Origin: Pyropia yezoensis
Lineage: Eukaryota > Rhodophyta > Bangiophyceae > Bangiales > Bangiaceae
Direction: 5' to 3'
NCBI GenBank assembly: GCA_009829735.1
Contig: CM020619.1
Span: 29,972,063-30,036,062 of the forward strand
DNA length: 64,000 nt
The position numbers and the translations under genes are program-made. The notes under the pieces were generated by a model. The model did not search any database. It was not told the DNA's origin and saw only the letters and a list, made by a program, of their open reading frames with translations. Positions 19,042 to 57,014 of this stretch are shown here, piece after piece; positions within the stretch are counted from its first letter, which is position 1; each line of letters opens with the position of its first letter.

Positions 19042-19043
19042 TT

Positions 19044-33378: not shown

Positions 33379-35322
33379 CTAGGCACGCATGCTAGACTCT
33401 CCCACTCCACGGCCCTCGCCCTCACGTGGAGGCGAGCGGCGAGACCCACGCCGATAACGGTCTCCACTCGTTGGAAGGGGCGGCGGCTCCAAGTCGGAAC
33501 CGTCGCGCCCCTCACGGTCGCGCAAGTGGCGCCGACCGTGGCTACTCTTCTGCCTGGTCTTGCGCGCAAGTTTGCGACGCAGACGCTGGACAGACTCCGT
33601 CTCCGATGGGGTAGAGGACTCCGAGACGGAGTAAGACAACTCGTCTTCCGACACGGAGGGAGAGCGCCGCGAGTGACGGCGACGACGGCGAGGAGGCGAG
33701 TATGCCCGGCTCGCACGACGCTTGCCACGCCCAAGTGGGGTTGGCTGGGGCATAATAGCCCCAATGCGAGCCAACTCGGCCGTCATAAACTCCGCCACCG
33801 ACTCGCAACTCGCGGTCGCCACTGCAGTACGAACGCGCTCCTCAAGTTGAGGAGTCTCGGAACTTTGGAGGGTTGCGGTCGACGCGGCCAACCAGGAAAT
33901 GGTGCGCACCAACGTGGTGATCATCATCTCTGAGGTTAGAGGCGTGGGCGGTAACACCAACTTGGGGTATACCGTCAGGAGGGTGGCCCCCAAGTTGGGA
34001 GACACCGGTGTGGATGACTCCACGGCCACGCTGATCGGGATGTTCCCGTGAGGCTGGAAAGGAACAGGAGGAAGCGGAGGGGCACGCCGAGGTGGCGGTA
34101 CCCGGGTGTAACTGCGACCCCGACTTGGGGCCCCCGCAGTAGGTTGAGTCATATGGTCATCATATGAGGGCACAGCCATAACTATGGGCTTGTCCGGGGG
34201 TGGCGCAGTGTGACGATCCACCCCCGGGGCATACGGGTAGTCCCCGATGCCCAACCCCTCTCGTAGGACCACACGGCCGTCGTGAAGTTCACGAGCGACC
34301 CATACGAACTGGCGAAGTGCGCCATCGTCCTTGGGCCCCCGAGTGGGGCGGCGCAACTTGTGCTCAATGCTCTCCCACTCGATAAACTTGTGGAGGCGGA
34401 GCATCTCCTCAAGTAGAGTGAGTTGTCCTGACGAGCACCCCTCAGCAACTAGCTGAGGGGTGAGCTGTTCCAAACCCTGGATGAGCCGGAGGGGGAGATG
34501 CCAGAGCATCCCCCGCCGCTGAACACATGACACCCAGGTCGACATGACCTCGAGGAGCCACTGGGTGGCCAACATGGCCCACACCAGATGATCAGGGCCA
34601 GCCGTCAACATGACGGAGCCGAAGTGGTCAAGCAACCGAGGCAACAATGCCGGGAACCCGTAGGGGACCTCAACTTGAGGCCACCACTCGGGCTTCTTCG
34701 GGTAGTATTGCTCCTTACTGGCAGCAGACTGCTGAGGAAACTCAAGTTGAGCCGAGGTCACCAAGTAGGGACCTCGCCGGAAGTCCTTCTCCATCCGCAC
34801 ATCAAAGTGATGAGTGTGCGGATCGGCCTCGTGAAGGTACGGGGGGCGAGTTGCCACCGCGTCCCAAGTGAAGGTCGGCAAGTCGCCGGGACCCGGGATA
34901 GTTCCCCCGCGGTCCACCATGGCCTTGGCCCGCTGCACGTCCTCGACCTCCTCGTCGTCCAGGAAGGCAAACTGGTCCGTCCTGAAGCCGGCAGGGAACC
35001 CGACCCTACGGGGATACTTCTCCCGTAGGCGGTCCCATACCCGACCCATCGCTGCGCCGAGTCGGCCACAGCGAAGAACAGTCAACCCCTCCTCATACAG
35101 AGGCCAAGCGGGGTAAAACCACCGCCCCAAGGCCTCACGCGGGACAACTTGTCCCGCCTCCGGGGGAGATCCTGCCGTCAACCCAAAGCCGGGTGACGCG
35201 GGAGTCCCACCCCCCGGAGCGATCGCGGAGCCCCCGCCGGAAGTCCCGGCAGGCGCTGCACCGTAGGAGGTGTCCTCCATACGCTCATCGAGAGAGTCCG
35301 TCTCCACTCCCGGAGTCGCCAT
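33379..35322 (-). CDS. Antisense accessory protein of element A (family not recognised)
   Basis: 647 residues on the strand opposite to pol, lying between the pol stop (111 bp away) and the 3' LTR. The start is ATG 35322 in strong context (agagccATGGcg); an open frame without ATG extends further upstream. Residues 1-60 are Gly/Ser/Pro-rich. A globular region spans about 60-340. Its core near 212-300 (VEVPYGFPALLP, HFGSV, QRRGMLWHLP) is shared with the antisense genes of C and D. The C-terminal 100 residues are Arg/Ser-rich (SPPRRRRRHSRRSP), suggesting nucleic-acid or nuclear association; this is inference. No zinc finger, membrane segment or known enzyme motif was seen. Antisense genes at this place are known in plant Tat-lineage elements such as Grande, but I see no evidence of relatedness. 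Confidence 0.85.
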   Translation of the reverse strand: MATPGVETDSLDERMEDTSYGAAPAGTSGGGSAIAPGGGTPASPGFGLTAGSPPEAGQVVPREALGRWFYPAWPLYEEGLTVLRCGRLGAAMGRVWDRLREKYPRRVGFPAGFRTDQFAFLDDEEVEDVQRAKAMVDRGGTIPGPGDLPTFTWDAVATRPPYLHEADPHTHHFDVRMEKDFRRGPYLVTSAQLEFPQQSAASKEQYYPKKPEWWPQVEVPYGFPALLPRLLDHFGSVMLTAGPDHLVWAMLATQWLLEVMSTWVSCVQRRGMLWHLPLRLIQGLEQLTPQLVAEGCSSGQLTLLEEMLRLHKFIEWESIEHKLRRPTRGPKDDGALRQFVWVARELHDGRVVLREGLGIGDYPYAPGVDRHTAPPPDKPIVMAVPSYDDHMTQPTAGAPSRGRSYTRVPPPRRAPPLPPVPFQPHGNIPISVAVESSTPVSPNLGATLLTVYPKLVLPPTPLTSEMMITTLVRTISWLAASTATLQSSETPQLEERVRTAVATASCESVAEFMTAELARIGAIMPQPTPLGRGKRRASRAYSPPRRRRRHSRRSPSVSEDELSYSVSESSTPSETESVQRLRRKLARKTRQKSSHGRRHLRDREGRDGSDLEPPPLPTSGDRYRRGSRRSPPREGEGRGVGESSMRA

Positions 35323-35650
35323 GGCTCTCCCCAAGTTGGGGAGAGACGTCCTGGCTATCGCGGCACGAGACCCGCCTCGAGTTGAGGGGGACTCGGATCG
35401 TGGGTAAACGGGTGGCCTCCCCAGCGTGGGGTGGCCCCGTGTAAGGTGAAGGAGAAGTGGTGGTGGTGGTGAGGTGTGAACCGAGGAGAGCAAGCTGCCA
35501 AGTGGGCAAGCTTGAGGAGAGGGGCGGCCAACGTGACCGCCTCCACATCCGCGTTACGTACTCAAGGGGGGACAGCAAGTCGCGTCCCCCCCTACGCCGA
35601 GACGTGCGTTTACGCACCCCCTCACAGGGCCGACCGGGTCGGTCGGAACT

Positions 35651-35663
35651 GAGGAGAGGGGAG
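35651..35663 (+). other. Polypurine tract of element A
   Basis: GAGGAGAGGGGAG directly precedes the 3' LTR. Confidence 0.82.
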
Positions 35664-36131
35664 TGTGGCAGTATTGACCCCCAGGTAGGGGGCAACACGT
35701 GCCATGCAAGGGGCGGCAGGCCACTAGCCTGATCCGTTCCTCCCCCTGCATTTGGGTCCATATTCCCTAAGTTCGGGATAGTTAGCTTAGTAGTAAATCC
35801 AACTTGGATTTGAGGGTTTTCTGCACTTATCGTCTTGAATTTTCGTGTGGCCCGGTGGGCAGGTGCTGGGGTGGGAGATTCTGAGTGGCGAGATTCTGAG
35901 TGGACCCTGGGGGGATAAGGGGAGGGACAGCGGGGCTTGGCCCTGCGTCCCCGTCCCGACCAAGAAACTGTTGGACCACACACCATCTTCTTGTTTGTCC
36001 GTGGGGGGATTGCCCCACAACAGGGATAGAGTGTGTGCGACTTGCACTTCTTCCGGTTCCCCCGACACGGGAGGCAGCCCTCGCACACCGCCCCAACTTG
36101 GGTACTGTGTGTGCGAGTGGTTTTTGCCACA
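35664..36131 (+). repeat. Element A 3' LTR
   Basis: 468 bp, apparently identical to 18574-19041, with the same TGTGGCA...TGCCACA ends. CCGGC follows and then F gag resumes. Confidence 0.95.
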
Positions 36132-37626: not shown

Positions 37627-40600
37627 AGGGCCTCCCCCAATGCGTCCAATGATGGGGGGGGGCCGAAGAGGATATTGCGCCGCCCTCGAAAAGCCTGCAT
37701 TATTGGCACTCCCTAAGGGGGTGAAACGGGAAAACGTCATTTGCGCGGTCATGCCTTCATCCAGCTATCAGCTGGCTGTACAACTGTTTGCTACTGAAGG
37801 GTTAGAACATGCATTGCATGCTGTCTTGGACACCGGAAGCGGGCCTTCTCTGATTCGAAGTTCCTTGCTCCCTAAGGGATTGAGGCTCCAGCCCCTAGGG
37901 GAGCTGGAGAATATACTGTACTTCGACTTGAATGGGGGGTGGCTTCCCATTCGAGGAACTGTGCGCTTAGGCGTACAAGTGGGAGACCAAGTTTCCTACG
38001 TTTGCTTTGGGGTAATCGATAATATGGCGGTGCCCGTCATATTAGGTAACTCCTTCGGAGATACCGAAGTGAATACCATCTCCTGTGAGGACCAGACGGT
38101 CACCCTCAAGACAGGGATGGTCGTCCCCATCCTTCGGGATATGGAGGACGTGGAACCGGGTCCCACTAAGTGGAGCCCCGTATGCGCTTGTCCTAAGGTC
38201 AAGACCGCCAAGCTCAGTTTGTGCCACAAGCTGAAGCTCAAGCCTGAGGTTATCTCCCATGTGAAAGTGAGAGGGCAGTTCCAGGGCCACGGGATTATTT
38301 CCGGCCAGCCCCGTCTCGCCCACAAGTACGGTGTTCACGTGGCTAAGGGCCCCGCGGAACTTAACCGTGATGCCCCATACACCATACAAGTGATGAATCC
38401 CACCCCACGCATGGTCCGCCTCCCCGTGGGGGCGGTGGCGGCTTCTATTTCTGCTTACGAAGGACCGGTGATGAGCGTTTCCCAAGAGGAGATGCAGAAG
38501 TTGAGTGAAGGCCCTACGGGTCGGATGGGTGATACCCACTCTGAGGTGGACCTCGGAGAGGTTCCTAACGCCCTGCGCCGTCGGCTCTTGGAGCTGGTGG
38601 AGAAATACAAATCCCTAAGGGATGGTACCCTTGGGCTTATCAAGAATACCGTGCACCGCATACGCCTAAAACCCGGGGCAACCCCGGTACGGCAACACCC
38701 CTATAAGGCGGGGCACAAGAACCGCCAGCTGGAAGGGGAGCAGGTGGAACGGATGAAGAAGCTGAATGTAATAGAACCCGCCGAAGGCGAGTGGGCTAGT
38801 CCTATTGTGATCGTGCCGAAACCGGATGGCACGCCCCGGTTCTGCATTGACTACCGGCGGTTGAACCTGGTAACGGTGAAGGACGCGTATCCTATCCCAA
38901 GGATGGATGAATGCTTGGACTCCCTAGGAAAGGCTAGGGTCTTAAGCACCCTAGACTGTAACGCTGGATCTTGGCAAATTCCCATTGCCCCAGAGGATAG
39001 GCACCTTACTGTCTTCACGTGCCATAAAGGCACGTGGCGATGTACGCGGTTGCCCTTTGGGCTCTGCAATGCTCCAGCGACGTTTCAACGGGCCATGGAT
39101 ATTATCCTGGCCGGTGTGAAGTGGCAGACGTGCCTCGTATACCTAGACGATGTTATCGTCTTCTCTCGCTCGGATGAGGAGCATCTGCACCACCTGGAGC
39201 ACGTGTTGGGCCTTCTCAAGGAGAATGGCGTGTCGCTGAAGGCGTCCAAGTGCCACCTTTCTCAGAGGGAGGTCGAATATCTGGGACACGTCATCCGCCC
39301 AGGGCAGGTGGCCGTGAATGAGAAGAATACCAAAGCCCTAAAGTGGCTGCATTACCCGCGTACGCAGACGCAGCTGAAGAGTTTTTTGGGCATGTGTGGG
39401 GTATACCGAAAGTTTGTCCCCAATTTCACCCGTATCGCTCGGCCGCTGAATATGCTGACTAGTACGCATCTGGCCAAGGAACTGCCTCCTCCTACGGAGG
39501 AGACTCAAGCGGCGTTCGAGGAGCTCCGCGACTGTCTTCTCAAGCCTCCCATTCTGGCCATCCCTCGGGAGGGAGCCCATTATATTGTGGAGGTGGACGC
39601 CAGCTATGAGCAGCTGGGTTGCGCCTTGCTGCAGCAGCAAGAGGATGGGGAGTATCTCCCCGTCGGTTATTTTAGTCGAGGTCTATCCCCGGCGGAACGG
39701 AACTATTGAGCTACAGAAATTGAGGCCCTAGGGGTCGTATGGTCTGTGACCTACCTGCGTTCCTTCTTGGAAGGGACCGAAATTTTGGTACGCTGTGACC
39801 ACTCCGCCCTCACTTCGGTGATGACGAGTAGTAGTCCCAATCGACGCCTTACGGGCTGGAGGCTCCGCTTGGCGGAGTTTTCGTACCAGATTAAGCACAA
39901 GCCGGGTAAGGACCACAAAGTGGCTGATGCCCTATCGCGCCTTCCAACGGATGGCTTGGACAAGACGCCTCTGAATGATCAAATCCCCGTTCTAGCGGTG
40001 ACAAGGTCAGCAAAGGCCCTTACGGACCGAAGCCATAAGGGCCTCGGCAAGATTACGCTCCGAGAGCTCATTGAAGCCCAGGATTCAGATGAGTTCTGCA
40101 AGCAGCGTCGGCTGGAGGGGCCTATGGTCTCCCCAAAGGATGCCCGTTGGCAACGCAAGGCCTTCTTCTTTGAAGATGACGATGGTGTTCTATGTCGCCA
40201 TTCCCTTCTCCGGGGGAACAACCAATGGGTCGTTCCAGAGTCGCTTCGAAAGCGTATTCTGGAAATGTACCATGACGCGCCTAGGGCGGGTCACCCGGGG
40301 TCTCGGAAGATGTATCGTACGATGCGGCAGTATTTTCACTGGCCCGCCCTAGTGGCGGACGTATACGGGTATGTCAATAACTGCCCACGATGCACCAAGA
40401 ACCGCATATCGGATAGGAGGCATAAGTCTCCTATGAAGCTTTTCCCCGCCCATGAGCCATTCCAATCGGTGGCCATTGATTTACTGGGTCCTCTTCCAAG
40501 GACGGAGAATGGGCACATCATGCTCCTGGTGATGTGCGACCGGTTCACCAAACTGGTGAGGGCGGTCCCACTATCGGACACGACTGCCCTTGGGGTAGCC

Positions 40601-41077
40601 TCTGCATTTATCGATTATTGGGTGGCTGCCTATGGCATCCCGGATTCTACGCTGACGGACAACGGACCTCAGTTTGCGGCCGTCTATTTCCAAGGAGTCA
40701 TGGGGCTCCTAGGGATCTCCACAAACTATACGACTCCGTATCACCCACAGACCAACGGTCAAGTGGAACGGTATAACAAGACAATCATGCGGCAGCTACG
40801 GACGTATTCGTCCGAGCACCCACGGGAATGGGATCGCTATGTGTCCCTCCTGACGACTGCATATAATATGCAGGTACATTCGAGCACTGGGGTAGCCCCA
40901 ATGACTTTTGTGAGCCCTCGGCGCAGGGTGACCCTAAGGGCCACCGGCACGGACGAGAGTACGCGATACTTGGGCGCAGAGGTGAAGCGTGACCATCGGT
41001 CACCCTTGTGGAGGTCCCTTCGTCACCTTGGGATATCTTTGTGGGAGCCTTCGGCCCCCATCCTTGCCTTGGCTTGA
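37607..41077 (+). pseudogene. pol: Element F pol, frameshifted, with nonsense mutation and truncation
   Basis: Pol begins in the -1 frame, matches A for a short stretch (RILRRP), then changes frame near 37690-37715; from there it is open as 37640-39709. Protease (DTGSGPS), RT (RFCIDYRRLN, YLDD) and the start of RNase H are clear. A TGA at 39707-39709 interrupts RNase H just after ERNY. The same frame continues with RNase H, the integrase zinc module, and the DDE residues (AIDLLGPLP, LTDNGPQF, HPQTNGQVERYNK). The similarity ends about 190 residues early, so the GPY/F module and chromodomain are missing. F cannot make a full Pol. Confidence 0.9.
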
Positions 41078-41310: not shown

Positions 41311-41671
41311 GGTAGCACAATAGGCATCCGTCGCACGTCCACTCTCAGGGAACACTCACCAGGGGGATCGGCACCAACGTCACCGGGAGGCCAAATTGCT
41401 GTCCTTGGAGCGCAAGCCACGGGACCAAGATGGGAGCCCAGATGGGAGGGGTTTGTTGTTCTACCTTGGCCGGCGGTGGATTCGCCGCCGGCCCCCTCGT
41501 TATAAACCCTCGGAGACACTACTAACTACCCTCCACCCCAAGATGCAAGTCCCTCTGGTCATACGTAACTTATAGATACCGTGACCAGTCCGGACTCTCA
41601 AATTGAAAGCCCAGGATTAGAAGTAGCCCCCCTAATATTAGGGTCACAATACAGACAACCACATTGCTACA
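41311..41671 (-). repeat. Element C 3' LTR (left end)
   Basis: 361 bp nearly identical to 51584-51945. A TATAAA box at 41501-41506 reads on the plus strand, that is, toward the antisense gene starting at 42268. Confidence 0.93.
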
Positions 41672-41685
41672 TATCCCCCCCTTAG
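41672..41685 (-). other. Polypurine tract of element C
   Basis: On the minus strand this reads CTAAGGGGGGGATA directly before the 3' LTR, a G-rich polypurine-type primer site. Confidence 0.72.
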
Positions 41686-42267
41686 ATTCGGCCCGTCCTC
41701 GGGTCGAGTTGCATTCGGGTTACCGAATGTAAGTGGGTCGCGTGACCGTTTACCAGTCGGGTGGGGCTTTGCGCCCCGTCGCGACAGACACCCCTTTTCG
41801 AGGTTGTCTGAGGGGGGTGCCCCCCTTTGTGTGGTACACACACGATCCGTTTTCCGGACCGTTAAATTCCCGATGCGGGTGTTTGTTCACGACCCCCCTT
41901 TCCGAGGGGTGGTGCAAGCGGATCCGCCACCAGATGTCTGGTGGTAGGGGGGGGGCCCCTCTCGCGTGGACGAATGAGTGGGTGGCGGGGGCTGCCCGCG
42001 TTGAGTGGGGGCGGTTGGGGGGTACCCCCCTTGATTGCCCTGTACGGGGGTGTGGCCCCGTCCCGCCCAGGTGCCTGGGTGGAGCGCGTTCGTAGCCCCG
42101 TGGGGCGCGGGTCGACCCGCGTGCCTGCGGCGCTTCTCGTGGCCGTTTGTTGTCATAAGCGCAGGTGCCCGCGCTTCCCTGGCTCGTCCTGCGCGAGCGT
42201 TCCTTGTACCGGGTCGAGCCGGCCTCATCTTTTCTGCACGGGGCGCCCCTGCTACCCCGGTTGCACC

Positions 42268-44637
42268 ATGGCGGACCCCCAGGTACCCGGGGGTGAGGAC
42301 GACCTCCTGCTTGAGGAGGAGGAGGAGGTGATGGTGGACGACGTTCCCGTCTTTGCCACCGCCGCCGAGTGCTTCGTGGCGAGCTCGTCGGAGGACGAGG
42401 ACGACCGGGTGACCGTTCGAGTGGCCTCGGAAGGCGCGCCGGGCGGGTTGTCGTCCGTGTGTAGCGGTACGACGGCTCCGTCGGGTGGCGGACAACCGCG
42501 TGCAGCAGTGGGCTCTACCTCTACTCCTCCGGCGGCCCGGATGGCTTCTGTAGCCGGTGCCGGCGCGGCTCTCCCTCAAGACGGTGTCGCCGGCGTGGCG
42601 GATGGTGGTGGCGGCACCCCGGCCAGTCCGGCGGGGCAAGACGGCGCGGGTGCCCGCCCGGTTGGTGTGTCCGCTGCGGTGGGTAGCGGGTCTACCCGTG
42701 CTTCCCCCGTGGTACCCACGTCGGGTCCGGGCGGCGGCAATGCTCTGCCCGCGGTGCCGCGGGCGCGTGATGGTCAAGAGGTATCTACCCCGATGGCAGT
42801 GGACTCCGGGAGTTACTCCTGGCGGGCGCCCGCCCTTCTTCTTCCTCCTCGGCCGCGCGCGCCTCCGGCGCCGGCCCCTCTGCCGGTGGGGCGTCCCCCG
42901 GCGCCCCCGATTTTTCCTGGTCCTGCCCGGGTTGCCCCGTTGGGTGGCGGCGTCGCCGTGGCGGCGGGTCAACCCGCCATGTCGATGTCCGACTTGGTGG
43001 CTCGGGTTCGGGGCCTGTCTGTGCAAGAGTCAATGGAGTCCGATGGGCGGATGCGGGTGGACTTCCACCTGCCCCATCCCCGTGGAGAGTCCTCCCGGCG
43101 GGTCAAGGTGGACCCGAGTTGGGAGCGGGAGTTGGTGCGGCTGGTCAACCAGCCGAACGCGATGCGAGTGGAACACCATTGGATCCTGAGTCAGCCGGAC
43201 GACCGGCATGCGCAGCTCTGGCGCACTCGGGTGGGACGGGGTGAGGTCTACCTCGACCCCAACTTCGGGGTATGCGACCTGATTGCCCCCGCGTTGCCGC
43301 GGGAGGTTGACTACCCGGCTAGTGCTCGGGAGATTGCGGCGGCGGCGGCGCCGGTTGCGTTCGGGGAGACGGTGGGCGATACCGGTCGGTATCCCGACTT
43401 CGCTTATTACCCGGGGGTATCCCCGTATCTGTCGTTGACTGCTCCCTACCCGCCTATGGCGGGTTTGAAGTCGGCGTCGAGCTGGCGACGTAACAATGGT
43501 GTCATGGCGGATGCGTTCCGCACCGATATAGCGTGTGCGTTGCAGACCGGCAACGGTCGTGCGCCTGTATACACTCCTGCGCGCCCGCCTCTGTGGCAGG
43601 AGGGGTGGGAACCCGCCCCTGCTTTCCGGTTTGACACCGGCCCTTGTCTCCGATACTTCGGGAGTGTGTTGGCCTCCCGACCGGTCCACCCGTTGCAGGG
43701 TACCTTTACTCTTGAGGTTACCCTCGTGCAGGCTTCTGCCTTCTTGCTGTCCGTCCGCCGGCAGGGGCGCCTGTTTCATCTTCCGACGGGTGTCCGTCGG
43801 CACATCGCGCAGTTGGGCGTGGACCTGATGGCTGCCAAGACCGGGTTGGCCCCGGAGTTCGAGGCCCTGCTGGCTGTTCACGATGCCTTTAACTGGGCTG
43901 GGGTGTTGTCCCTTCCCCCGTACCGGGACCCGCAGGCTGGGCCTTCCCCCTTGCCTCGTCACTCGTTGCGTATCCGGCGTACTCAGCCGGGTGAGCCCAG
44001 TTGCCATGGGTGGGCGTCCACCGAGGCTGTTGCTGACCTGGGTATTCCCATGGTTATCCATGACCCTTTTCAGGTCCTTGCCCCGTGGTTCGGTAACCCG
44101 ATACCGGTGGCGGTTGGCCGTCGTCCGCGAGAGTGGGGCTCTGCGGGTGGGGAGCGAGAGGTGTCCCGTCGTCGGGCGGAGCCCCTCCGGGGTTACGGTG
44201 GAGCCCCTTCGGTAGGGTCCTACAAGGCCTCGTATCAGGTGCCACCGGCTCCGGTGGTAGCCGTGTCGGCTCCTGTGGCTCCTCTGGCTGCGCCAGTGTC
44301 ACCTCCCGCCCCTGTCGTGCATGACGGGGGTCCCCGTCTCTGGTATGAGGGCGTTGACGCCCTTGTTACCCGCGCAATGCGGGAGGGTCTCTCTGTTAGC
44401 TGGGGGGATATCCCCCCAGGTGCTGCGCTGGTTGGGTCAGCGCGTTGCTTCGGTGGCGTGCTTGACCGCCTCCAGAAAGCTCTGGAGGACGTGGAGGCTG
44501 GCCGCAGTTCCCTCGTCCAGCTGTGCACCGAGGTAACTCGGGTGATTGACCGTCGTGACATTGCCGACCGGTGGAGCACGGATGTATACGCGCTTACGCG
44601 TGAGTGGCCTCCCTCGGGCAGTGGGTCTACCCACTGA
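42268..44637 (+). CDS. Antisense accessory protein of element C (family not recognised)
   Basis: 789 residues on the strand opposite to C gag-pol, between the 3' LTR and the end of pol. The ATG at 42268 has strong context (ttgcaccATGGcg); the open frame upstream has no ATG of comparable quality. The N-terminus is acidic (EEEEEVMVDD near 17-26), followed by an Ala/Gly/Pro-rich stretch to about residue 230. A globular region then contains the core shared with A and D near 455-520 (RYFGSV, RRQGRLFHLP). The C-terminal third is Pro/Val/Ala-rich, ending in a more helical segment. The frame has no stop although gag-pol of the same element is broken several times; high GC also favours long open frames. 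Function unknown. Confidence 0.8.
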   Translation: MADPQVPGGEDDLLLEEEEEVMVDDVPVFATAAECFVASSSEDEDDRVTVRVASEGAPGGLSSVCSGTTAPSGGGQPRAAVGSTSTPPAARMASVAGAGAALPQDGVAGVADGGGGTPASPAGQDGAGARPVGVSAAVGSGSTRASPVVPTSGPGGGNALPAVPRARDGQEVSTPMAVDSGSYSWRAPALLLPPRPRAPPAPAPLPVGRPPAPPIFPGPARVAPLGGGVAVAAGQPAMSMSDLVARVRGLSVQESMESDGRMRVDFHLPHPRGESSRRVKVDPSWERELVRLVNQPNAMRVEHHWILSQPDDRHAQLWRTRVGRGEVYLDPNFGVCDLIAPALPREVDYPASAREIAAAAAPVAFGETVGDTGRYPDFAYYPGVSPYLSLTAPYPPMAGLKSASSWRRNNGVMADAFRTDIACALQTGNGRAPVYTPARPPLWQEGWEPAPAFRFDTGPCLRYFGSVLASRPVHPLQGTFTLEVTLVQASAFLLSVRRQGRLFHLPTGVRRHIAQLGVDLMAAKTGLAPEFEALLAVHDAFNWAGVLSLPPYRDPQAGPSPLPRHSLRIRRTQPGEPSCHGWASTEAVADLGIPMVIHDPFQVLAPWFGNPIPVAVGRRPREWGSAGGEREVSRRRAEPLRGYGGAPSVGSYKASYQVPPAPVVAVSAPVAPLAAPVSPPAPVVHDGGPRLWYEGVDALVTRAMREGLSVSWGDIPPGAALVGSARCFGGVLDRLQKALEDVEAGRSSLVQLCTEVTRVIDRRDIADRWSTDVYALTREWPPSGSGSTH

Positions 44638-45115: not shown

Positions 45116-48100
45116 TTACAGTAGGCGTCGTCGCCTCATGTAAGGCATGAGGAGTTGGCGGGGTATATTTGCCGCCTGGTCCCAGGTGGGTGAGTCGTAT
45201 CCGACCCACATAACCTTGACGTACCAGGGTCCTGGTAGGTCCGGGTCGGTGTGTCCGACCACGCTCTCTACTTGGTATGGAATCCCATCCGGTCCCACCG
45301 GGTCATCTGACCGGTGGGTTGTAAGAGCTTCATGTAGCAACCCAGCCGGTACCGGCTGAGGCTGTTCCGGCTTCGGAGCAGGTGTGACATCATACACACT
45401 GATGCGTTGGATCTCTGTATCGGAGTGTTAGATAACAGAGTGGTCATCTCTGTGGAGAATCTGGTACGGTCCCTTGACCGGTTGCATGAGCTTATTGCCC
45501 CGGAACTTCTGGTGTCTGATGTAAACCCAGTCACCTGTCATCAGGGTAGCGTTGCGCACCCGTGGTCGGGCGTCGAAGTTCTTCTTGTATCGAAGTTGCG
45601 TTCTGTCAAGGGCACCCTTGAGCTTAGGAATCATCCACGATAGCTTGGCCAACCAAGCTAGGTGGATGCGTTCGGCCGGTCGGCCTTTCGGTGTATCATA
45701 CCGAGTGCACCTGCCTGGCGGCAGCGTCAGGTTACCGACGCCTAGTGGCGTGACCCACTCCAGCGGAGCGATGTTCGTGCTCCGATGTGGCCTGGCATTG
45801 TATGCCAGGGTGAGTACGGACAGAAGCCTGTCCCAAGTGTTCGTGTGCTCGGCCACGTAGCACTGTAGCATCTTCACGATGGTGCGGTTGAACCGCTCCA
45901 CCTGTCCGTTGGTTTGCGGGTGGTAGTCGGATGCCCGACGTGGTTCGATGCCGAACATGCCCAGGACCTTAGTTCAGAATGCCGACGTAAGGTTTGCTCC
46001 GTTGTCGGAGAGGAGTTGCTTCATGACTCCGTATGCACTGATCCAGTGGTCAACCACTGCGTTCATGATGGTGTATGCCGTATCATTCGGGATGGCTGCC
46101 GCTCGTGACAGCTTGGTGAAGCGGTCCGACATGACCAGGATGTACCTGTTCCCTTCTTCCGTTACCGGAAGTGGCCCGAGTATGTCGATGGCGACCTGCT
46201 CGTTGGGCCCATCAGGTGGGAAAAGCTTCATGGCAGACGCCTGCCTATGTAGACTCATGCGGTTACGTGCACAGGGGTGGCATCCCCTTACGTGGTCGAC
46301 CACGTCGACGGCCATTGCTGGCCAGTAGAAGATCCTTCGCATTGCTGCGAACATACGTGAACCCCCCGGGTGTCCGGCTGTAGGGTTCTCATGTTCTCGT
46401 TCCATGACGGCTTGCCGTAGGGACACGGGAACCACGACTTGGTGTCGTCCATCGGCGGGTGCCCGCCGGTATATGAGTCCGTCTTCGTTCTCGGAGAAGA
46501 TGCCGGCCGTACCGGCTAGGAGGTTAGCACGATGACGTCTACAGTCATCGTCATCGGCCTGTGCCTCGCGGAAGTCCGCGAGGGTCAGTGGGCACGCAAG
46601 GTGTGCCATGGTATGGTCAACCATACCCTGGGTAGCGTTACCCACCATGCAGACCGGTACCACCGGGATGTCCTCGTCCACCTGGCGGGTATCCCCGCTC
46701 GGGGTGTCGAGTCGAGACAGCGCGTCTCCGAGGTGGTGGGTTGACCCAGCCTTATACATGGTACGGTAGTCGTGCTCGGCCATCTTCAGCCTCCATCGGG
46801 CTAGCCTCCCGTGGCTATCGGAATCCTTGTCACCAAGGTTGAGGAGCCATCGTAGGGGTTCGTGGTCGGACCTCACGATGAACCTGGAGCCCTCCAGGTA
46901 TGGACGGAGCAGTTGCACTGCCCATGTAACTCCGAGGCATTCACGCTCGGTGGCACTATAGTTACGCTCAGCCGGGTTGAGTGTCCGGCTGAAGTACCCC
47001 ACCGGACGTAGGTCCGGGATAACGTTATCGGAACCGATCAACGTCTCTCCCTGTAACAGGGTGCATCCCACTTGTGTATCACACGCATGGACATCGATGA
47101 CGAAGGTACCCCGTCTATGCGGTAACGCAAGGACGGGTGGGGATAGTAGGGCTCGCTTCATCGACTCGAATGCCTCCTCTTCGCTAGGCGAAGGGGGATG
47201 GAATACCTTGGGTAAGGTACTGCTCGTAAGAACCGTTAACGGTTTAGCTATCCGAGCAAAGTCCTTGACGAACCGTCGGTATACATTGCACACTCCCAGG
47301 AAGCTCTTGAGCTGCGTCTGGGTGTTAGGGAACCGAGCATCCCGGAGTGCCCGGGTATTGGCTTCGAGTACCCCTAGTTTACCAGGGGTTATCCGGTGGC
47401 CCAGATACTCGACCGTCTGTTGGAAGAAGGCGCACTTCTTCAGACGCAGGGTTACCTCGGCGTTCCTCAAGAGGGTGAGTACCTCGTCAACATGTTGCAC
47501 ATGGTCATCCATGTTACGCGAGAAGACGATGACGTCATCGAGGTACACTAGGCAGTTACGCCACTTCACCCCCGACAGTATAATGTCGATAGCCCGCTGG
47601 AATGTAGCGGGGGCGTTGGACAATCCGAAGGGCATCCTTAGGAACTCGTACACTCCACTGTGACAGACGAATGCCGTCTTGGGGATATCCTCATCCGCCA
47701 CCGGGATCTGCCAGTATCCGGCATTGCAGTCGATGGTGGTAAACACCGTAGCTTCCCCCAGGGAGTCGATGCATTCATCCATCCTTGGTAAAGGGTATGA
47801 GTCCTTCTTGGTTACCAAGCTGAGGCGTCGATAATCGATGCAAAACCGAGGGGTTTGATCCTTCTTCGGTACGATAACGACTGGGGCACCCCACTCCGAC
47901 ATCGAAGGTCGGATCACCTTAGCTGCACTCATCCTCTTCACTTCTCCATCAACGATCTCTCGTTGCATAGGTCCCGCTCGGTGCGGTTGTGACCGGGCGG
48001 GTCGTGCGCCTGGTACCAGGTCTATACGATGTTGTGTTGCCCCAATGGTACCTAAGGCCCCGCCTGTCCACATGACGTCATGCTTTCTAAGCATCCGTCG

Positions 48101-49187
48101 TACCCCTTCGGCTACCCAAGGGGGAAGGTGGTCGAGGTCAGCCTCGGCCAGGGCCTTCAGTGCTTCTTGGTGCTTTGGCGGCATGTCCGCCGGATCCGCC
48201 GATGGGTTAGGCTTCCCGTCATCGGGTTGCTGTCGCTCGGTGGTCTCGGCGACCGCCAGCACCTCAAGTGGTTCCACTTGACCTTCCTTGTCCGGGGTAA
48301 GGATATCTCCTTCGTAGAGCTCGGCAATCCCGAGGATAGTTCCCATCGGGAGGGTGACTGCCTTACGGCGATAGTTCGCCATCACTAGGAGGGACGACCG
48401 TCTCCGACAACGGCTCAAAGCGAGTTCGCTTGGCCAACCGAAGTGTCTTCGGCTCGACGCTTGCGTACACCTCAGCCACGTTAACGTGGCTCCCTTCTAG
48501 CGTCAGGTCCCTGACGATAGCCGTATGTCCTCGCTTCGTCCCGTCGGCTTCTTGAAGCTCGACGGTCCTCCGGCCTGGCCGGATTGCATCAACGTGGACG
48601 TTGATGAAGGTGCACCCCAGTATGCAGGGCACCGATAGCGTCTCACATACCAGGAAGTCAACTTCCGTAGTAAGTTCCCCGATGGTAACCCGCAGCGACA
48701 TCGCTGCGGTCGTACGAACGAGGCGACCATTCGCGTCCTTGATGGTGGGTCCCCGAGTCACTCTGACTCGCGGAAGCCACTTGTCCGGGAGGGTATCCTT
48801 CCGGATAAGGTTGGGTCCGGCCCCTGTATCCAGTACAGGGTAGTACGATCGTGTCGACTGGGGGTCAACCCCCAGTGTAGCTGATACCTTGAAGTTCTCC
48901 AAGGTGAACAGTACGTGACCTACACCGATATCCGGTGTGGCTCGGGCATCCTGGACAGGGCCCTTGTCTGGTTCAACGTGACGGGGCATCCCGTCCTCTT
49001 CTCCCAACCTTGGTGGTTGGTCATCAATCCCCTGACGCCGTGTCGTCGGGGCCGGAAGGTGTACCCGGGGGTTGATGCGGCATCGGCTCAACCGCGCTCT
49101 CCGTGGGGCTTTCCCCGCGGTACTCCGGGGTGGCTTGCTTGGGTTACCCCAGCGCCCCCCGGTCATCCTTCCTCTTACTCGTTTCCC
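45116..49187 (-). pseudogene. pol: Element C pol, broken
   Basis: Pol runs in the -1 frame from the slippery site at 49181-49187. The protease (VLDTGAGPNLIRKD) is in the first segment (to 48363). A frameshift, probably with a small deletion, lies near 48385-48400. The next segment holds RT (RFCIDYRRLS, intact YLDD), RNase H and integrase. A TGA at 45974-45976 interrupts integrase just after the second catalytic Asp (SDNGANLTSAF). The third segment holds the integrase Glu (HPQTNGQVERFNR) and GPYQIL. A TAA at 45428-45430 follows. The chromodomain (WYVKVMWVGYDSPTWD) ends at 45116. All three segments after the frameshift share one frame, so the stops are simple nonsense changes. Confidence 0.92.
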
Positions 49188-51358
49188 ATGCTCGGCCGGG
49201 TACTGTCCGCCGGGCCATCCGGCTGAGGAGGTGCCTCCTCGACGGCCAGTACTCCACCTGGAGCTGGCTGCCTACCCGGTGCGGGTCCGTGTGCTCTGGC
49301 GGGATACCCCCCGGTGGATGCCTTGCGTTGCGCCGCTGCCCGCTGAGACTCCTCGGGGATGAGTGGGCAGGAAGACACCCAGTGCTGGGGATCCCCACAC
49401 AACATACACCCGGACGTGCCGGTCCTCCCTTGAGTTCGCATCGGGGTAGCCCCGTAGCTACGGTTGCCTCCCTCGGGCGCCCGAGTGCCTGCTCCCTGGT
49501 AGGCCTTGGGTCCTTGGGTCAACCGGAACATGGACTCCCCCAACCGGTTGGGTCGGCCCGCAATCTGCGGAGGTGCCTCCGTGCGCACCGCCCATGTTGG
49601 CAAGGGTTGGTGAGGGTTACCCGTCACCGGGGATTACCCCGTAGTCCGTACGTACGGGACGCGACGTCCCGCTCCTTCGTTGACCTGGAACTGGGTTCCA
49701 GCCGGGGAGATGTACGCTACCGTACCATGCTCATCAATCACCGGCGTCGCCGGTAGCAACAGGTGGCCCTGTTGGTCGACTAGAGGTTCATCTTCACCGG
49801 TAGGGGCATGTTCGGTTGCCACCAGTACTGGTGCGGCCTTACGTTCCACCTTCTCTTGCCTCGGTACAGGGGTAAGACTGGGCTTGCCTCCCTCACCCTT
49901 GGGCTTCGGGGCCAAGGCACATTCCGGGTGTAGCACCCGGTAGGCGTCCCCTAGGGACTTGCACATATGCATCAGTCGACTGCAGTTCGTCCGGGCCGTA
50001 TTGGCTCCCCGTGCGGATATCCGCACGTAGTTGGGTACTCCTGCGAACAGGATGGCCCGTAGTTCCCCTTCACCGAGGAGTTTCCCCAGCTCGTAGTCGA
50101 GCTCTTGGATCCGGCGTCCAAACATCTCCTCATCCTCCCAGAACTGGGCGGTGGCAGTGCGAAGGGCCCGATAGTGGTCCTCGCACTTGTCCTCACTGAG
50201 GTAGCTGCTCAGCAGCTCCTTGAGAATCCCACGGTAATCCATGGGGGTGGCCGCGACCCTCATTCCCGGCATCGGGGATGCCTGGCGAAGAATGCCTCGC
50301 ACCCGTTCATCAACAAAGAACGGGAGGATCTCCAGGGCCAGCCCCTCGTTGACGAGCGCCTTGTCCGCGGCTGCCTTGAAGCTAGTCAAGAAGCCAATGA
50401 CTGCCAACGGACGTCCGTTGGGGCCCCCGAACATAGGGATTCCCTTCATAAGGGTCTGCATAGAGCGGATCGCCCGATGCGACGTATTTCGCATCGATTC
50501 CGATACGGTGGTAGAGCGGTCCTCCAAATGATAACGTTCCGGAGTAAGAACCGACCGGAAGACCTCGTTGACGATCTCCGTGTCAGCGTCCTGGATATCC
50601 AGTCGCTTAGCCAGTTGATGAGCAAGCTCATCGGACTCCATCCGCTTCAGTAGGCTCGCAGTTACCTGCGCGGTCATAGCCTTCACCACTGAGGATGGTA
50701 CTTCCGGCGTCGGCACCTCGGGAACCCGAGTTGCCTGGCCTGCTTCGTCGTGGGGATACTGTGAGAGGGTACCCCCTCCCCCAATGACCGACTCTCCACC
50801 GGCGTAAGTATCCGCCGGGTCGTGTCCGCGGAGTCCGCTTCGGGTGCTCCGAGCGTATCGCTCCGTGTGACTCCGTTCCAACTCTGCCGACGAGTCGGAT
50901 CCATACCCCATTGTGTCCGGGGGTCGTCCAGGAGTAGCAACACCGGGGTTGACCCTGGTGGACTCCGAAAGTAGTCCGGCCGGTTCAAACCGTACCGGTG
51001 TGGGAGGAACACGACGGGGTCCCGTCGTGTGGCGTGTTGACATCAACACTGCCATTGCGTCCTCCGTCCGCTCCTGGCGAGCGTCGAGTCCGGAAAACCG
51101 GGCCTCGATGCGGGCCAATGATGCCATCAGGGAATCCCCTGGTGAAGGAGGCGGCGGAGTGAGGTCGGTCGACGACAGTTGAGGCGGGCCCCCGCCTCCT
51201 GCCGTCCGAGCCGTGCCGAACGTCGATCCGGCACCGGAAAGCATTGGCGTCTCAATGTTGTCGATCGGGTTCCCGATCCCGGTTCCCGTAGTCACCTCCG
51301 GGGTCGGCGTCGACGCCGATCCGTCATCTTGAACGTTCCCCGTCTCTTGGGTAGACAT
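49175..51358 (-). pseudogene. gag: Element C gag with one in-frame stop
   Basis: About 727 codons from ATG 51358 to TAA 49175-49177, with a single internal TAA at 49634-49636 in the same frame. The N-terminal third is Thr/Pro/Gly-rich. A helical capsid-like middle follows. The C-terminal part after the internal stop has a CCHC knuckle (CMLCGDPQHWVSSC). The internal stop would remove the knuckle and prevent frameshifting into pol. GGGAAAC precedes the final stop by two codons. Confidence 0.88.
49181..49187 (-). promoter_or_regulatory. Slippery heptamer GGGAAAC of element C
   Basis: On the minus strand the phase is G GGA AAC relative to gag, followed by GAG and TAA. Pol continues in the -1 frame with no start codon needed. 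A downstream stem is possible from the CCGGGG...CCCCGG complementarity, but it begins about 18 nt away. Confidence 0.75.
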
Positions 51359-51564
51359 AGTCACAATCAGTCAACCGACGTAACAATCACCACGAATAAG
51401 AGAGCGAGGGGGTAGATTGGGGAGAGTAACAGTAGATCACAGTCACAGGTAAAAGCTCAACACAATCGATCAGGTCGCAACACCACGAGTACAAGAAAAG
51501 GACCGGATCCCAATCCGTGTGCCAGGGCCGAAGACGGCGTCACCACGAGGTTGACGGAAGCCCG

Positions 51565-51582
51565 TCCCCTGCTGCTCCACCA
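51565..51582 (-). other. Element C primer-binding site
   Basis: The minus strand reads TGGTGGAGCAGCAGGGGA one base after the 5' LTR, identical to A and D. Confidence 0.85.
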
Positions 51583-51583
51583 A

Positions 51584-51945
51584 TGTAGCACAATAGGCAT
51601 CCGTCGCACGTCCACTCTCAGGGAACACTCACCAGGGGGATCGGCACCAACGTCACCGGGAGGCCAAGGTTGCTGTCCTTGGAGCGCAAGCCACGGGACC
51701 AAGATGGGAGCCCAGATGGGAGGGGTTTGTTGTTCTACCTTGGCCGGCGGTGGATTCGCCGCCGGCCCCCTCGTTATAAACCCTCGGAGACACTACTAAC
51801 TACCCTCCACCCCAAGATGCAAGTCCCTCTGGTCATACGTAACTTATAGATACCGTGACCAGTCCGGACTCTCAAATTGAAAGCCCAGGATTAGAAGTAG
51901 CCCCCCTAATATTAGGGTCACACTACAGACAACCACATTGCTACA
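51584..51945 (-). repeat. Element C 5' LTR (right end)
   Basis: 362 bp with ends TGTAGCA and TGCTACA as read on the plus strand. The primer-binding site on its left side identifies it as the 5' LTR of the minus-strand element. Confidence 0.94.
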
Positions 51946-51950: not shown

Positions 51951-52697
51951 CTTGTGTCCGAAGGGCCACGGGGGGGGGAAGGAGTTGGAGGGGAAGCGGA
52001 CCGGCTACCCTCACCGATGGGAGCGGGGTTGCCCAACTGCCCCGACGGGGTAGCCATGACTGACCGCTCTCCAATGGGGACGGGGGGGGGGAAGAGTGTG
52101 GATACCACCCCCACCCTTAAAGTGAGGGCGAGGGAGACGCACGCAGACCGGTGGCAGCGAGGATGAGTAGCGGGAGTGGTGGGGACGGAGGCCGTCCTCG
52201 CAGCGAGCACCCGTTGCCACCCCCCTCGCTACGATCCACCCCTCTCGGGTGGACAGGCGGCCCTCTTCTACCCCTCAGCCCCCCGACAAGGGGCCGAGGG
52301 GGGGGGTGCACCAGAGGCCCCCAAACCCCTCGCTCCCGGCTACGCCAGGAGAGCCAGTCCCCTCACGGCCCCACCCTGTGCGGGCAGGGCCGTGGGAGGC
52401 GACAGGCCCTATCCTTGCTGCGTCCCCCACCCCTCAGGTGGTGATTTTGAGGGGGGTGTCTCCACATATCCCTCCCCCTGTCGTTCAACGGGGGCGGACA
52501 CGATTGTCTCCCCAGGGGAGAAAACCATGGGACCGAGCTGACCCAGTGTCATCCACCCCCCCCGTGGGGATGGGTACACTCGGCGGTGGGGACGGCATGC
52601 TGCCAAGTGGCATTGCCTCCACCGCCCGTTTGGCGCTGGGGGGGAGTGTCCCTCAGTGTCTGGGTCGCGGGTCGCAACCCTATGGAGGTGTGGGAAG
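51951..52697. other. Element F 3' region, right part, no intact gene
   Basis: A GC-rich stretch with runs of G and C and only small overlapping frames. A purine-rich patch (52684-52697, with ggaggtgtgggaag) directly before the LTR can serve as the polypurine tract. The conserved core of the antisense gene was not found here. Confidence 0.6.
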
Positions 52698-53387
52698 TGT
52701 AGGGACCCTATGGGCCCTCCACGTGGGGGGACCTCGTAGAGATCGCGTGGTACCCCTGCGTCCACCTTCCTAATGAGGAGGACGGGGCCGACTTGGCCCC
52801 CCGGGATTTTACTGGCTTCCGATTGGTCCCCTCCTATGGAGGCGGGACCGGGGCGCTATTGATTCTGGGGCCCATTTCGGGATTCCCAGTGTATGGGATT
52901 TTCCCCTGGCCGGAATTGGCCTCTGGTCAATAATCCGGGATGGGATGCATTTGGGGTTTGGATTGTGATTGCGTATTTTGCGTGATTGTGAGATTGGGGA
53001 GATCTTGAGTTCTGGCACTGATGTCCGGCGGGGCTCCTCTTCCCCGTATCTTGGAGATTCCTGCCCCGCTGGCAGGGATGATCCGTGGGGGAGGGGGCCC
53101 TCCGGACATGTTGGAGGGTTTTGATTGGCCCGCACGTGGCCCGGTGTGGAGGGTTGGTAGGTGCGGGTGAGAGAGGGTAAGAGTGTGCGTGGGGGTGCGC
53201 GTTGCTTCCCCCTTCGAAAAAAACAGACTTGCGTGTGCTTGAACACTGTCGTCCTGGTCGCGGATCCCCGCGTGAACAAGCCAGGCGGTCGGCGGCTCAG
53301 AATCTCTCCGGTCTCCCCGCGTTCTTGGTGGGTTGTTTCTCTGTGTGTTCTGGGTGCTAGGCGCCTAAGGTACGTAAAACCACTATA
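52698..53387 (+). repeat. Element F 3' LTR
   Basis: 690 bp matching 17522-18211. It starts TGTAGGG and ends CTATA where the 5' copy ends CTACA. CGGCG follows. Confidence 0.92.
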
Positions 53388-54172: not shown

Positions 54173-55078
54173 TGTAGCGTAATTGAGCCCAGATTCCCGA
54201 AACCACAAACCACAAACACTCACACAAAGACCACAGTCCGGAGTCCAGGAAGGAACAGGTAAGAGCCCTTGCTGATCCACTCGCCCGCCACGATACGAGG
54301 CAAAGGTAAACAGGACAAAAGCCCGAGGGAGAAGGAACCCAAAGCACTGTTCATTTTACAAGATGGCCCCGGGGAGAACCCCGGAGCACCTCTCAAGAAC
54401 CTCCCCCCCTGGCCCCTCCAGGGGCCCAGAGCGAGGCCCCCAGAGGGCGCCCCCAGCGGGCCAAGTGCCAGCAAGGCACCGGCCGCTCACCGGGCCAACA
54501 CACAAAAAGCAAGCGAAATCCCCCCACACACAAATGTCAATCCCCAAAAAAAACCCAGTGGGAAAAAGGGGAAAGACACGAAATCACGCAAGGAAAATAA
54601 ATGTGAAAAATCAAACAAATAACCCGAAGGTCAGTATGCCCCCAACCGGGCAAGTCCTCCACTCCGGGGGACCAATCAGGGCACTGGGCGTGTCGCCACT
54701 GCCCCGGGCCACCGATGCAGGGATCCCAAGCCAGCGCGTGCTTCCACGTAACGCTGCCAGCCGGGTCCCAAGTCAGCCTCCCGGGTCCCAACGGTACCTG
54801 AGGGCCACAACGCCACATGGCCCCCTCACTAGGGCCGAGCGTCCCGCCGGCCAACAGGGAAACCGGGGAGAGGGACTGGAAAGGGTCCGACAGGGTTACA
54901 CCAGGGTCACAACGAACGGGACGTGGGGCCAGTGTCTGCAAACAGGGTCCCCCCCGACAGGTGTCTCGAGGCAGAGGGTCCCGGGCAGACTGAACAGGGC
55001 GGTACGGGAGGGACCGAGGGCCACGCACAGGGTAACTAGGGGAGGTGTGGCGCAGCCCGCGCCGGCCGCCCGCCTGCA
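54173..55078 (-). repeat. Element D 3' LTR (left end)
   Basis: The left boundary is exact from comparison with 63652. The right boundary is inferred: CTGCA at 55074-55078 is followed directly by a long polypyrimidine run, giving a 906-bp LTR that starts TGCAGG on the minus strand and ends CGCTACA. Only the first 349 bp can be compared with the other LTR here. Confidence 0.75.
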
Positions 55079-55101
55079 TTCCTCCTCTCCTCGCCCTCCC
55101 C
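55079..55101 (-). other. Polypurine tract of element D
   Basis: The minus strand is almost entirely A and G over 23 bases (including GGGGAGGGCGAGGAGAGG), directly before the proposed 3' LTR start. Confidence 0.75.
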
Positions 55102-55388
55102 ATGTGGCGCTCGGCCCGTGGGGTGAGTGAGGAGGCGTAGGGATGCGGACGGGGGCCGGCGGCACACGGGCGCAGCCTGGGTTCCGTCGGAGTGGGGGCC
55201 CAGGGATAAGAGGGCCCTCACGGGCTCCCTCGTCCCCGCGACCGGGACCCCAACGCACCATCTTCCCCGCTACGCTTCCCCGTGGGCTCCTCAATCGTTC
55301 CCTCTACCCGTTCCCCTTCCCAACGTTCCCACGCACCCGTTCCCCCTGGTACCCCACTTTCCCACACCGTGCCCCGTTTCCCCGTCCC

Positions 55389-57014
55389 ATGGAGCCCGGC
55401 CGCGCCGCGACGAGCGCGTCGGCTGGCAAGGGCTCGACGGTACCTGGGGCCCGAGGCGGTCCCATCGTACAAGGCGCAGCGGGTCAAGGGGCTCCTGATG
55501 GTCAAGGCGTACCGGTTGCGGGGCCAGGTGGGAACAACATGGAACAAGAGGAGCGTGGTGCGGGTCAAGCGTACGTCACGGTCCATGGCACGGTTCCCGA
55601 GGACTTTGGTCCCGAGACGGTCACCGCTTGGCGCCGGGAAGAGGCCCGCGGTTGGGTCACCGGTACCCCGGCCCATAAGGTCCTTCGAGTCGTGGACGGG
55701 TCCTGTCCCGGGAACGCGTTCCGGAAGCAGATGACCGCGATGGTCCAAGCGCGGATCCCGGTTAGGGCCGATCGGTCCCAGTCGATAACGGTGGTCCGGC
55801 ACGCGGGAGAGGTTGGGTACGTGGAGCGGTTCAAGAGCATCCGGGACGAGGTCACCAAGGGGACCCTGCCTGCGGGCCCAGGTCCCGAGTACATCGTGCT
55901 CCCGTCTCCCTACTTGGACCCTTCTTCCTTCAAGCCGTCCCATGGGGACCTTTTGGTCAGTCGGCTCCATCGGGACAAGAATGGGATCCTGGTCGGCTGG
56001 CACCAGCAAGAGTTCCCGAGTTGTCCAGCTACCCTTCGTGGGCTCCACTACCTCCGGGTACCCCACTGGTTCGGTCACGTTGAGGTTCCTTTTGGGGCCC
56101 TGGTGGAACTGCCCCCGGTCCAGTGCTACTTCGGGGAACTCCTTCGTGCCTCGGACCCCTTTGCCTGGTTCGTGTTCCGGACCGAGTGGGCCATGAACTG
56201 TGCCCTGTATACCCTGGAGCGGGCCCGTCGTTCCGGCGAGATGTGTCTCCTTCCCCGTCTCCTTCGGACCTGGATCGACCGTGTCGGGGTCCCTGACATC
56301 TGCAAGGGTCCCGGTGGCGTGGACGAGGGAGCGGCGCGGGACCTCAAGGCACTCATGGTCCTCAGCGACCGGGTGGTCGGGGCCCCTGGGCTTCGTTCCC
56401 GTTTGGGCCAGGCGGCTTCCAACCGCAAGGACCGTGCTTCCTACGTCTTGGTACGGTTCGAGACCCGGGACGGGACCTGGGCAGCGCTCGTGGACGAGGA
56501 CCTGGCTCCCGTGGACCTTCCTTACTCGACGGACATCTTGGACGCGCGGGAGTTTGTCGGGCCCAAGGACGGGAACGTGGGCCAGTCGGACGAGATTGTA
56601 CCTGGAAGTGGGTCCGGTGGTCCTGGTGCCCCTGGTATCCCTGGTGCCCTGTCGTCGGGCTCCCTTGTTCAACGTGACCCTGCGCTGGGAAGTCGTACCG
56701 TCTTCGTGGCCAACTTGTTGGCCCATGGCGAGGTTCCTGATGAGGAACTTCGGAACCTTGAGGGCAACCTGGCTACCTCAACCGTTCTGGGGCTCCGTAG
56801 TTTCTTTGGTGGGTCCGCGGACGTCCTGGCCCATGCTCACGTGGGGCCCTTGCTTTCGGCTTCCCTCCATACTACCGTCAACATTGGGTCCCGTGTAGCT
56901 GAATGGACCCGGGTCCAGGCGGGTTCCACGACGCCGGACTACAAGGGCCTGTTGGCGATCATGGACCGTAATGGTATCCGTGGGGACCTGGGGTCAGAGT
57001 TGGCCACGGCCTAG
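55389..57014 (+). CDS. Antisense accessory protein of element D (family not recognised)
   Basis: 541 residues from ATG 55389, chosen for its strong context (cgtcccATGGag), matching the A and C starts. An in-frame ATG at 55143 would add 82 Pro/Arg-rich residues. The gene lies between the 3' LTR and the pol end, on the opposite strand to pol. The core near 228-300 (VEVPFGALVELPP, YFGELL, RRSGEMCLLP) aligns with the A protein at about the same distance from the start (VEVPYGFPALLP, HFGSVM, QRRGMLWHLP). Residues 1-60 are low-complexity. The frame is open although pol of the same element is damaged. An AATAAA lies about 390 bp downstream. Function unknown. Confidence 0.82.
   Translation: MEPGRAATSASAGKGSTVPGARGGPIVQGAAGQGAPDGQGVPVAGPGGNNMEQEERGAGQAYVTVHGTVPEDFGPETVTAWRREEARGWVTGTPAHKVLRVVDGSCPGNAFRKQMTAMVQARIPVRADRSQSITVVRHAGEVGYVERFKSIRDEVTKGTLPAGPGPEYIVLPSPYLDPSSFKPSHGDLLVSRLHRDKNGILVGWHQQEFPSCPATLRGLHYLRVPHWFGHVEVPFGALVELPPVQCYFGELLRASDPFAWFVFRTEWAMNCALYTLERARRSGEMCLLPRLLRTWIDRVGVPDICKGPGGVDEGAARDLKALMVLSDRVVGAPGLRSRLGQAASNRKDRASYVLVRFETRDGTWAALVDEDLAPVDLPYSTDILDAREFVGPKDGNVGQSDEIVPGSGSGGPGAPGIPGALSSGSLVQRDPALGSRTVFVANLLAHGEVPDEELRNLEGNLATSTVLGLRSFFGGSADVLAHAHVGPLLSASLHTTVNIGSRVAEWTRVQAGSTTPDYKGLLAIMDRNGIRGDLGSELATA

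Follow-up and report, generated by a model that had tools for sequence, protein, structure and literature searches.

Antisense genes between pol and the 3′ long terminal repeat

The window analyzed here is a 64,000-nucleotide stretch of the genome of the red alga Pyropia yezoensis (GenBank assembly GCA_009829735.1, contig CM020619.1, positions 29,972,063 to 30,036,062). It contains the long terminal repeat (LTR) retrotransposons A, B, C, and D. In A, C, and D, a long open reading frame (ORF) is located between pol and the 3′ LTR, on the strand opposite to gag-pol (Table 1), which corresponds to the layout class aORF-3R. The three frames encode one homologous protein family with a fixed place and orientation, which is absent from B. 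A first-pass annotation of the DNA had pointed to long open frames opposite to gag-pol in A, C, and D; all three are present, and each starts at an ATG. The antisense stop codon is separated from the end of pol by 111 bp in A, 478 bp in C, and 539 bp in D.

Thirty D-family loci were fetched from the genome. An LTR is positioned upstream of the antisense gene in 29 of them, and the C-terminus of pol was found downstream, on the opposite strand, in 24, with 1.5 kb of flank examined. The order of LTR, antisense gene, and pol is also present in two further D subfamilies. All 18 D loci with sequence at the site of the antisense ATG contain it. The stop codon of the window copy of the D gene (57012-57014) precedes an acidic and arginine-rich C-terminal tail that is conserved in relatives. 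Just upstream of the D gene, partly within the LTR, is a 255-residue frame on the antisense strand (54363-55130), and similarly placed frames occur in several D loci; the frame could be a leader exon or a product of chance.

The products of the A, C, and D genes have a common core of approximately 170–250 residues. BLASTP aligns A with D (E-value 5e-13, 25% identity over 251 residues), A with C (4e-8, 25% over 203), and C with D (4e-4, 26% over 170). In profile comparisons by hhalign, the D profile matches A at 5.7e-9 and A matches C at 9.3e-6, and the match of D to C is weak (0.0028, probability 11%). Profile hidden Markov models (HMMs) were scanned against 740 six-frame ORFs of the window: the D-family HMM found A at 1.1e-12, the C+A HMM found D at 1.2e-9, and the D+A HMM found C at 4.2e-4. 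The noise level of these three scans is marked by the best reversed decoy at 0.18 and the best unrelated forward ORF at 0.1. C is not among the matches listed for the D-family HMM alone. The core that had first been proposed from shared motifs is thus upheld by BLASTP, hhalign, and HMM scans. As far as sequence comparison can tell, the homology of C and D appears weak by itself, and A serves as the link between them.

When seven family proteins were compared with the window by tblastn, all matches under 1e-3 were in the antisense regions of A, C, or D, and none was in gag or pol, which rejects an origin as a duplicate of either gene. P0004, a relative of the A protein, matches C at 2.8e-5, and the C protein (P0002) finds D at 0.040 only, with the intact A copy not listed. 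The window comparison lists no DNA matches between the three antisense genes. In the protein collection, the A protein has one relative (P0004, 97% identical), the D protein three (98, 49, and 53%), and the C protein one (83%). The genome matches listed for P0008 reach no more than 57% identity, and the best-scoring one has 51%, so that P0008 is probably from another species.

The antisense proteins have no family match in Pfam, NCBIfam, PADLOC, or the sequences of the Protein Data Bank (PDB), in agreement with the earlier remark that they belong to no recognizable family. No Pfam model matched any of eight family members at E ≤ 10. Among ten members, the single Pfam match was DACNK, in one protein at 0.27; the best E-value of the PDB sequence profile was 0.86. 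Three scans of viral contigs contained no relatives.

Codon substitutions in the antisense frame

Codon substitutions in the D family were analyzed in 19 of the 30 fetched loci (L009–L038, with L009 being the window copy), which were hand-picked for a long open frame. This choice favors constraint somewhat, and the controls upstream of the ATG and in the other frames were drawn from the same loci. The C family is represented by the window copy and three others, out of at least 51 matches. The six-frame test in D comprised eight hand-picked pairs, and the comparison of sequences before and after the ATG comprised five D and three C pairs. The A copies are nearly identical, too alike for estimating the ratio of non-synonymous to synonymous substitution rates (dN/dS, omega).

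From the ATG onwards, the two main D subfamilies differ by dS of 0.97 and dN of 0.25, giving an omega of 0.25 (95% confidence interval 0.19–0.33); a second comparison between subfamilies gives 0.28 (0.22–0.36). In contrast, omega between the D subfamilies upstream of the ATG is 0.89 (0.56–1.38), and the upstream values in D range overall from 0.49 to 1.46 with wide intervals. Within D subfamilies, omega is 0.16–0.56 (seven pairs), and for the entire D frame including its upstream part it is 0.22–0.60 (pairs beginning with L009, L021, L023, or L024). Along the D gene, in full windows of 60 codons, the synonymous differences are even at 0.50–0.58, and the non-synonymous differences begin at 0.47 in the first window and go down to 0.12–0.15 in the best-kept ones. 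In the C family, omega from the ATG is 0.35–0.47 (three pairs), and in the core it is 0.20–0.34 (six pairs). Upstream of the ATG it is 0.65–1.59 in the five pairs giving a ratio, dS being zero between L048 and L049. The window copy of C and L048 have an omega of 0.38 (0.26–0.56) from the ATG, compared with 1.59 (0.93–3.29) upstream.

The low values are specific to the reading frame. In the eight D pairs, the antisense frame has an omega of 0.22–0.51, and the other frames reach 0.97 or more, except for frame -1 (0.24–0.57). Over the whole stretch in C, the antisense frame and frame -1 both have values of 0.51–0.64, and the remaining frames 0.90–1.67. Frame -1 has its third positions in common with the antisense frame and tracks its omega in both families. 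However, it contains 12–20 stop codons per sequence in D and 19–24 in C, and is therefore not the coding frame. The antisense frame as a shadow of a sense gene was also rejected: the open sense frames in C and D correspond to frame -0, with an omega of 0.97 or more in D and 1.04–1.40 in C.

The antisense frame is under purifying selection in the D and C families, with an onset at about the ATG, and it is almost certainly a genuine element gene under selection. The first-pass annotation had argued for selection, and would have given it up had the three products lacked profile matches or had the codon patterns lacked purifying selection; both the matches and the patterns were found.

Elements, copies, and history of the gene

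According to the available text of the genome report (PMC7423979), P. yezoensis has three scaffolds, and repeats, most of them LTR retrotransposons, form 48% of the genome. The assembly searched here has 107.5 Mb, with large contigs of 43.6, 34.3, and 29.4 Mb. The pol genes of the elements encode reverse transcriptase (RT), RNase H, and integrase in the order of Ty3/gypsy elements. Pfam places a chromodomain at the C-terminus of pol above its cut-off for D and the D-family locus L035 and below it for A and L012, and C has no match. Of the earlier description of three chromoviruses, the Ty3/gypsy part therefore holds for all three elements, and the Pfam chromodomain for D. The 15-base core of the primer-binding site is identical in A, C, and D.

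Inspection of the elements refined the initial picture of the window. Element A is a tandem of LTR-internal-LTR-internal-LTR, in which a run of N breaks the middle LTR, and the antisense frame of the first copy is disrupted. The identical five target-like bases CCGGC are present on either side of the entire tandem (18574-36131), which is young, given its identical outer LTRs. The indels in the first copy (25289-28082) are likely to be an assembly error near the gap of approximately 500 N, because all 63 scored copies in the genome are open. Element A is nested inside B, the element without the gene, and so is element C (41312-51945), 234 bp past the B pol. Element D begins at 54173 and extends beyond the end of the window. 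A reversed LTR fragment at 9-435 is approximately 79–83% identical to the A LTR.

Table 1. Positions of the antisense genes and of the elements that surround them, numbered from the first nucleotide of the window
Feature	Positions	Strand	Remarks
A antisense gene	33379..35322	-	647 residues from ATG; frame open back to 35553; basic Arg/Ser-rich C-terminal tail
C antisense gene	42268..44637	+	789 residues from ATG
D antisense gene	55389..57014	+	541 residues from ATG; window copy ends before the C-terminal tail of relatives
Core of A common to C and D	34351..34755	-
First A copy, antisense region	25289..27253	-	broken frame; several small indels near N run 27583-28082
A 5′ LTR	18574..19041	+	100% identical to A 3′ LTR
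A 3′ LTR	35664..36131	+	341 bp from antisense ATG; CCGGC on both sides of tandem
A pol	29467..33267	+	RT, RNase H, integrase, chromodomain below cut-off (Pfam)
B LTR, left	17521-18209		97.4% identical to 52697-53385; followed by primer-binding-like stretch
B 3′ LTR	52697..53385	+	97.4% identical to 17521-18209; ~985 bp from B pol, nested C excluded
B pol	37640..41077	+	two open stretches; element without antisense gene
C LTR, 3′ side of element	41312..41671	-	596 bp from antisense ATG; 99.2% identical to 51585-51945
C LTR, other end	51585-51945		99.2% identical to 41312-41671
C pol	45116..48418	-	RT to integrase; single frame with two in-frame stops in window copy
D LTR, 3′ side of element	54173..54817	-	571 bp from antisense ATG; 98.3% identical to second copy running past window end
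D pol	57554..60550	-	RT to chromodomain (over Pfam cut-off); one in-frame stop in window copy

The genome searches score the best candidates only, so that the copy numbers are lower bounds, and divergent relatives of A, as well as a host gene, may have escaped notice. The A protein (P0001) has at least 63 matches at approximately 100% identity, 62 over residues 1–704 and one over 1–703, and all 63 are free of stop codons. A 135-residue piece of A has at least 150 matches at 99–100%, of which 149 are without a stop; by hand count, 114 of the 150 are inside the same 724-residue open frame. The long open copies with nearly identical proteins, together with the identical outer LTRs in the window, indicate that the A family was recently active. 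The C protein (P0002) has at least 51 matches at 86–100%, many of them interrupted by at least one stop in the matched stretch, and the D protein (P0003) at least 77 matches at 41 to 100%, with fragments counted separately. Many copies of the family thus carry the gene; the searches began from the gene itself, so copies without it would escape view.

The antisense gene is approximately as old as pol in the D elements. Eight antisense and seven pol pairs were compared, two of the pol pairs, both with L037, being without a usable value. Between D subfamilies, the C-terminus of pol has a dS of 0.76–0.86 and an omega of 0.09–0.11 (three usable pairs). Because the synonymous depth is similar, the antisense gene and pol travelled together, and a swap of the antisense cassette between elements is ruled out. 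The antisense protein changes approximately three times faster than pol (dN of 0.25 compared with 0.07–0.09). LTRs of the D subfamilies (54173-54817 compared with loci L009, L012, L021, L026, L032, L035, and L037) are 91–99% identical, whereas the inner parts are 45–85% identical in DNA and the antisense gene in 53–81% of bases. Since the depth of pol is like that of the gene, it is the LTRs that are unusually alike, and they seem to have been exchanged or homogenized between D lineages.

In the RT tree, in which eight more distant rows serve as the outgroup, A and B are sisters (98/99), and C and D are outside this pair. The gene is therefore most simply ancestral and lost in B; one gain before the common ancestor of A, B, C, and D and one loss in B is the simplest history. 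The family HMMs list no ORF in the approximately 985 bp between pol and LTR of B. In one outgroup element, the 4 kb downstream of the RT locus contain no family match (best E 1.3), although an A-type LTR (97.4%) is inserted there. At L057:1063-1531, an A-type LTR with this degree of identity to the A LTR follows the pol end of a distant chromovirus located elsewhere in the genome.

Possible functions and comparison with known systems

We give a probability of about 0.45 to the reading that the frame is an antisense accessory gene of a red-algal, chromovirus-type Ty3/gypsy clade and that its product is a nuclear regulator. A separate antisense transcript may start in or near the 3′ LTR, the edge of which is 341–596 bp upstream of the ATG, and end before or within the end of pol. 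The protein would act in trans on the life cycle of the element, most likely as a nuclear regulator of its transcription, RNA handling, or integration. The conserved core would be the working part, and the flanks would be fast-evolving. A nuclear regulator appears the most likely role by analogy with the plant antisense genes, together with the layout, selection, age, lack of membrane segments, and tail of the A protein. This tail is strongly basic (isoelectric point 11.7) and fits a nuclear role, but C and D are without such a tail. In a broader and distinctly tentative form of this reading, an ancestral trans-acting regulator encoded in antisense in red-algal chromoviruses originated separately from TRP28 of plants and the genes of human T-lymphotropic viruses, and elements like B that lost it may use the product of others.

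Several observations weigh against the regulatory reading. The long, basic cluster resembling a nuclear localization signal is present only in A, and the C and D proteins from the ATG are mildly acidic. A DNA- or RNA-binding domain is not detectable in the antisense proteins. The structure prediction suggested for the A protein was run on the D protein instead, and the two AlphaFold models are poor and uninformative, with a mean predicted local distance difference test score of 35.6 (8 rows) and 45.9 (6 rows); a Foldseek search with the second found nothing at E ≤ 0.001 and was not used as evidence. Stops interrupt the frame in several D and C copies, and element B goes without the gene, so that not every element requires it. 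In some D pairs the upstream omega is no higher than 0.49–0.57, with wide intervals; D therefore shows a less clear step at the ATG than C does. The inference of loss rather than gain depends on four elements, and the RT tree does not fix how C, D, and the A–B pair branch relative to one another.

The additional genes that retroelements carry frequently serve assembly or transport. The antisense protein could accordingly be a structural or replication helper, such as a particle accessory, a chaperone, or an env-like or movement-like protein, that happens to be encoded on the opposite strand, and a core predicted with low confidence to be helix-rich would suit such a helper. We consider this unlikely, yet a serious candidate. 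None of four antisense proteins contains a transmembrane-like segment (highest 19-residue hydropathy 0.98–1.41), and the lack of a hydrophobic segment rejects an env-like membrane protein. The gag and pol genes, as described above, are without matches to the family, and an antisense promoter would uncouple the dosage from gag, which would be odd for a particle protein.

It is somewhat less likely still that the protein counters host silencing or defense, or derives from a host gene recruited to that end. The faster evolution than that of pol at similar dS (omega of 0.25 compared with about 0.1), the quick change of the N-terminal parts, and the presence of the gene in some elements and not in others favor this reading. 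However, no host relative is among the genome matches listed, in which element-like copies rank first, and omega is below 1 in the core, where it was estimated over the stretch and not site by site.

Descent from an ancient element shared with plants, which would place the gene as a remote relative within the Tat/Retand antisense family (TRP28, PF04195), is very improbable. The place and orientation are as in Retand, but the available text of PMC11963269 describes Retand elements as non-chromoviruses. Within the sensitivity of sequence profiles, PF04195 has no match at E ≤ 10 in the genome or in any of the sets of eight and ten family members, which agrees with the earlier statement that there was no evidence of kinship to Tat-lineage antisense genes. 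That the antisense RNA alone matters and the frame is a by-product of base composition is hardly credible: GC-rich sequence gives long shadow frames, and G+C is 56–68% in 2 kb steps over this stretch, but selection is frame-specific. In addition, the proteins retain approximately 25% identity although the comparison lists no match among the genes at the DNA level, and conservation does not extend to the synonymous sites of the antisense frame (dS 0.97).

Antisense genes at this position have already been described in plant elements and one fungal element; the protein reported here has no match in the libraries searched. The papers listed in literature searches that mostly excluded subscription papers included none on antisense genes of red-algal elements; PMC12477816, in its available part, deals with brown algae. 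The plant aORF-3R elements named in the accessible parts of PMC7264820 and PMC11963269 are Grande, RIRE2, Retand, and PvRetro13. These sources describe the Grande product as nuclear and its antisense gene as having its own promoter, and suggest a regulatory role for plant antisense genes. According to the same text of PMC11963269, 97% of Retand clusters encode TRP28. The plant elements resemble A, C, and D in having a long gene in antisense orientation at this site; in the plant elements, most copies keep it. In contrast to the non-chromovirus Retand with TRP28, the elements described here are of chromovirus type, belong to a red alga, and have no detectable TRP28; the plant proteins other than TRP28 are likened to them by description only.

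Outside plants, Boty of Botrytis cinerea and Sclerotinia sclerotiorum carries an ORF in antisense orientation after pol and before the 3′ LTR (PMC7264820, available part), and is like A, C, and D in this position as its layout is described. HBZ and APH-2 of human T-lymphotropic viruses are mentioned as antisense genes in the available part of PMC11963269, and that of PMC7264820 places the antisense promoter in the 3′ LTR. Their likeness to the case proposed here is one of layout only, namely an antisense gene driven from the 3′ LTR, presumably so in the algal elements, with a regulatory product; they differ in that their carriers are retroviruses. A selected antisense gene without a detectable relation to TRP28 suggests that the slot between pol and the 3′ LTR was filled more than once. 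This would hint at a common need, for which control over the element's own expression is the most plausible candidate. Since the A family was recently active, the gene may be directly testable in the cultivated alga.

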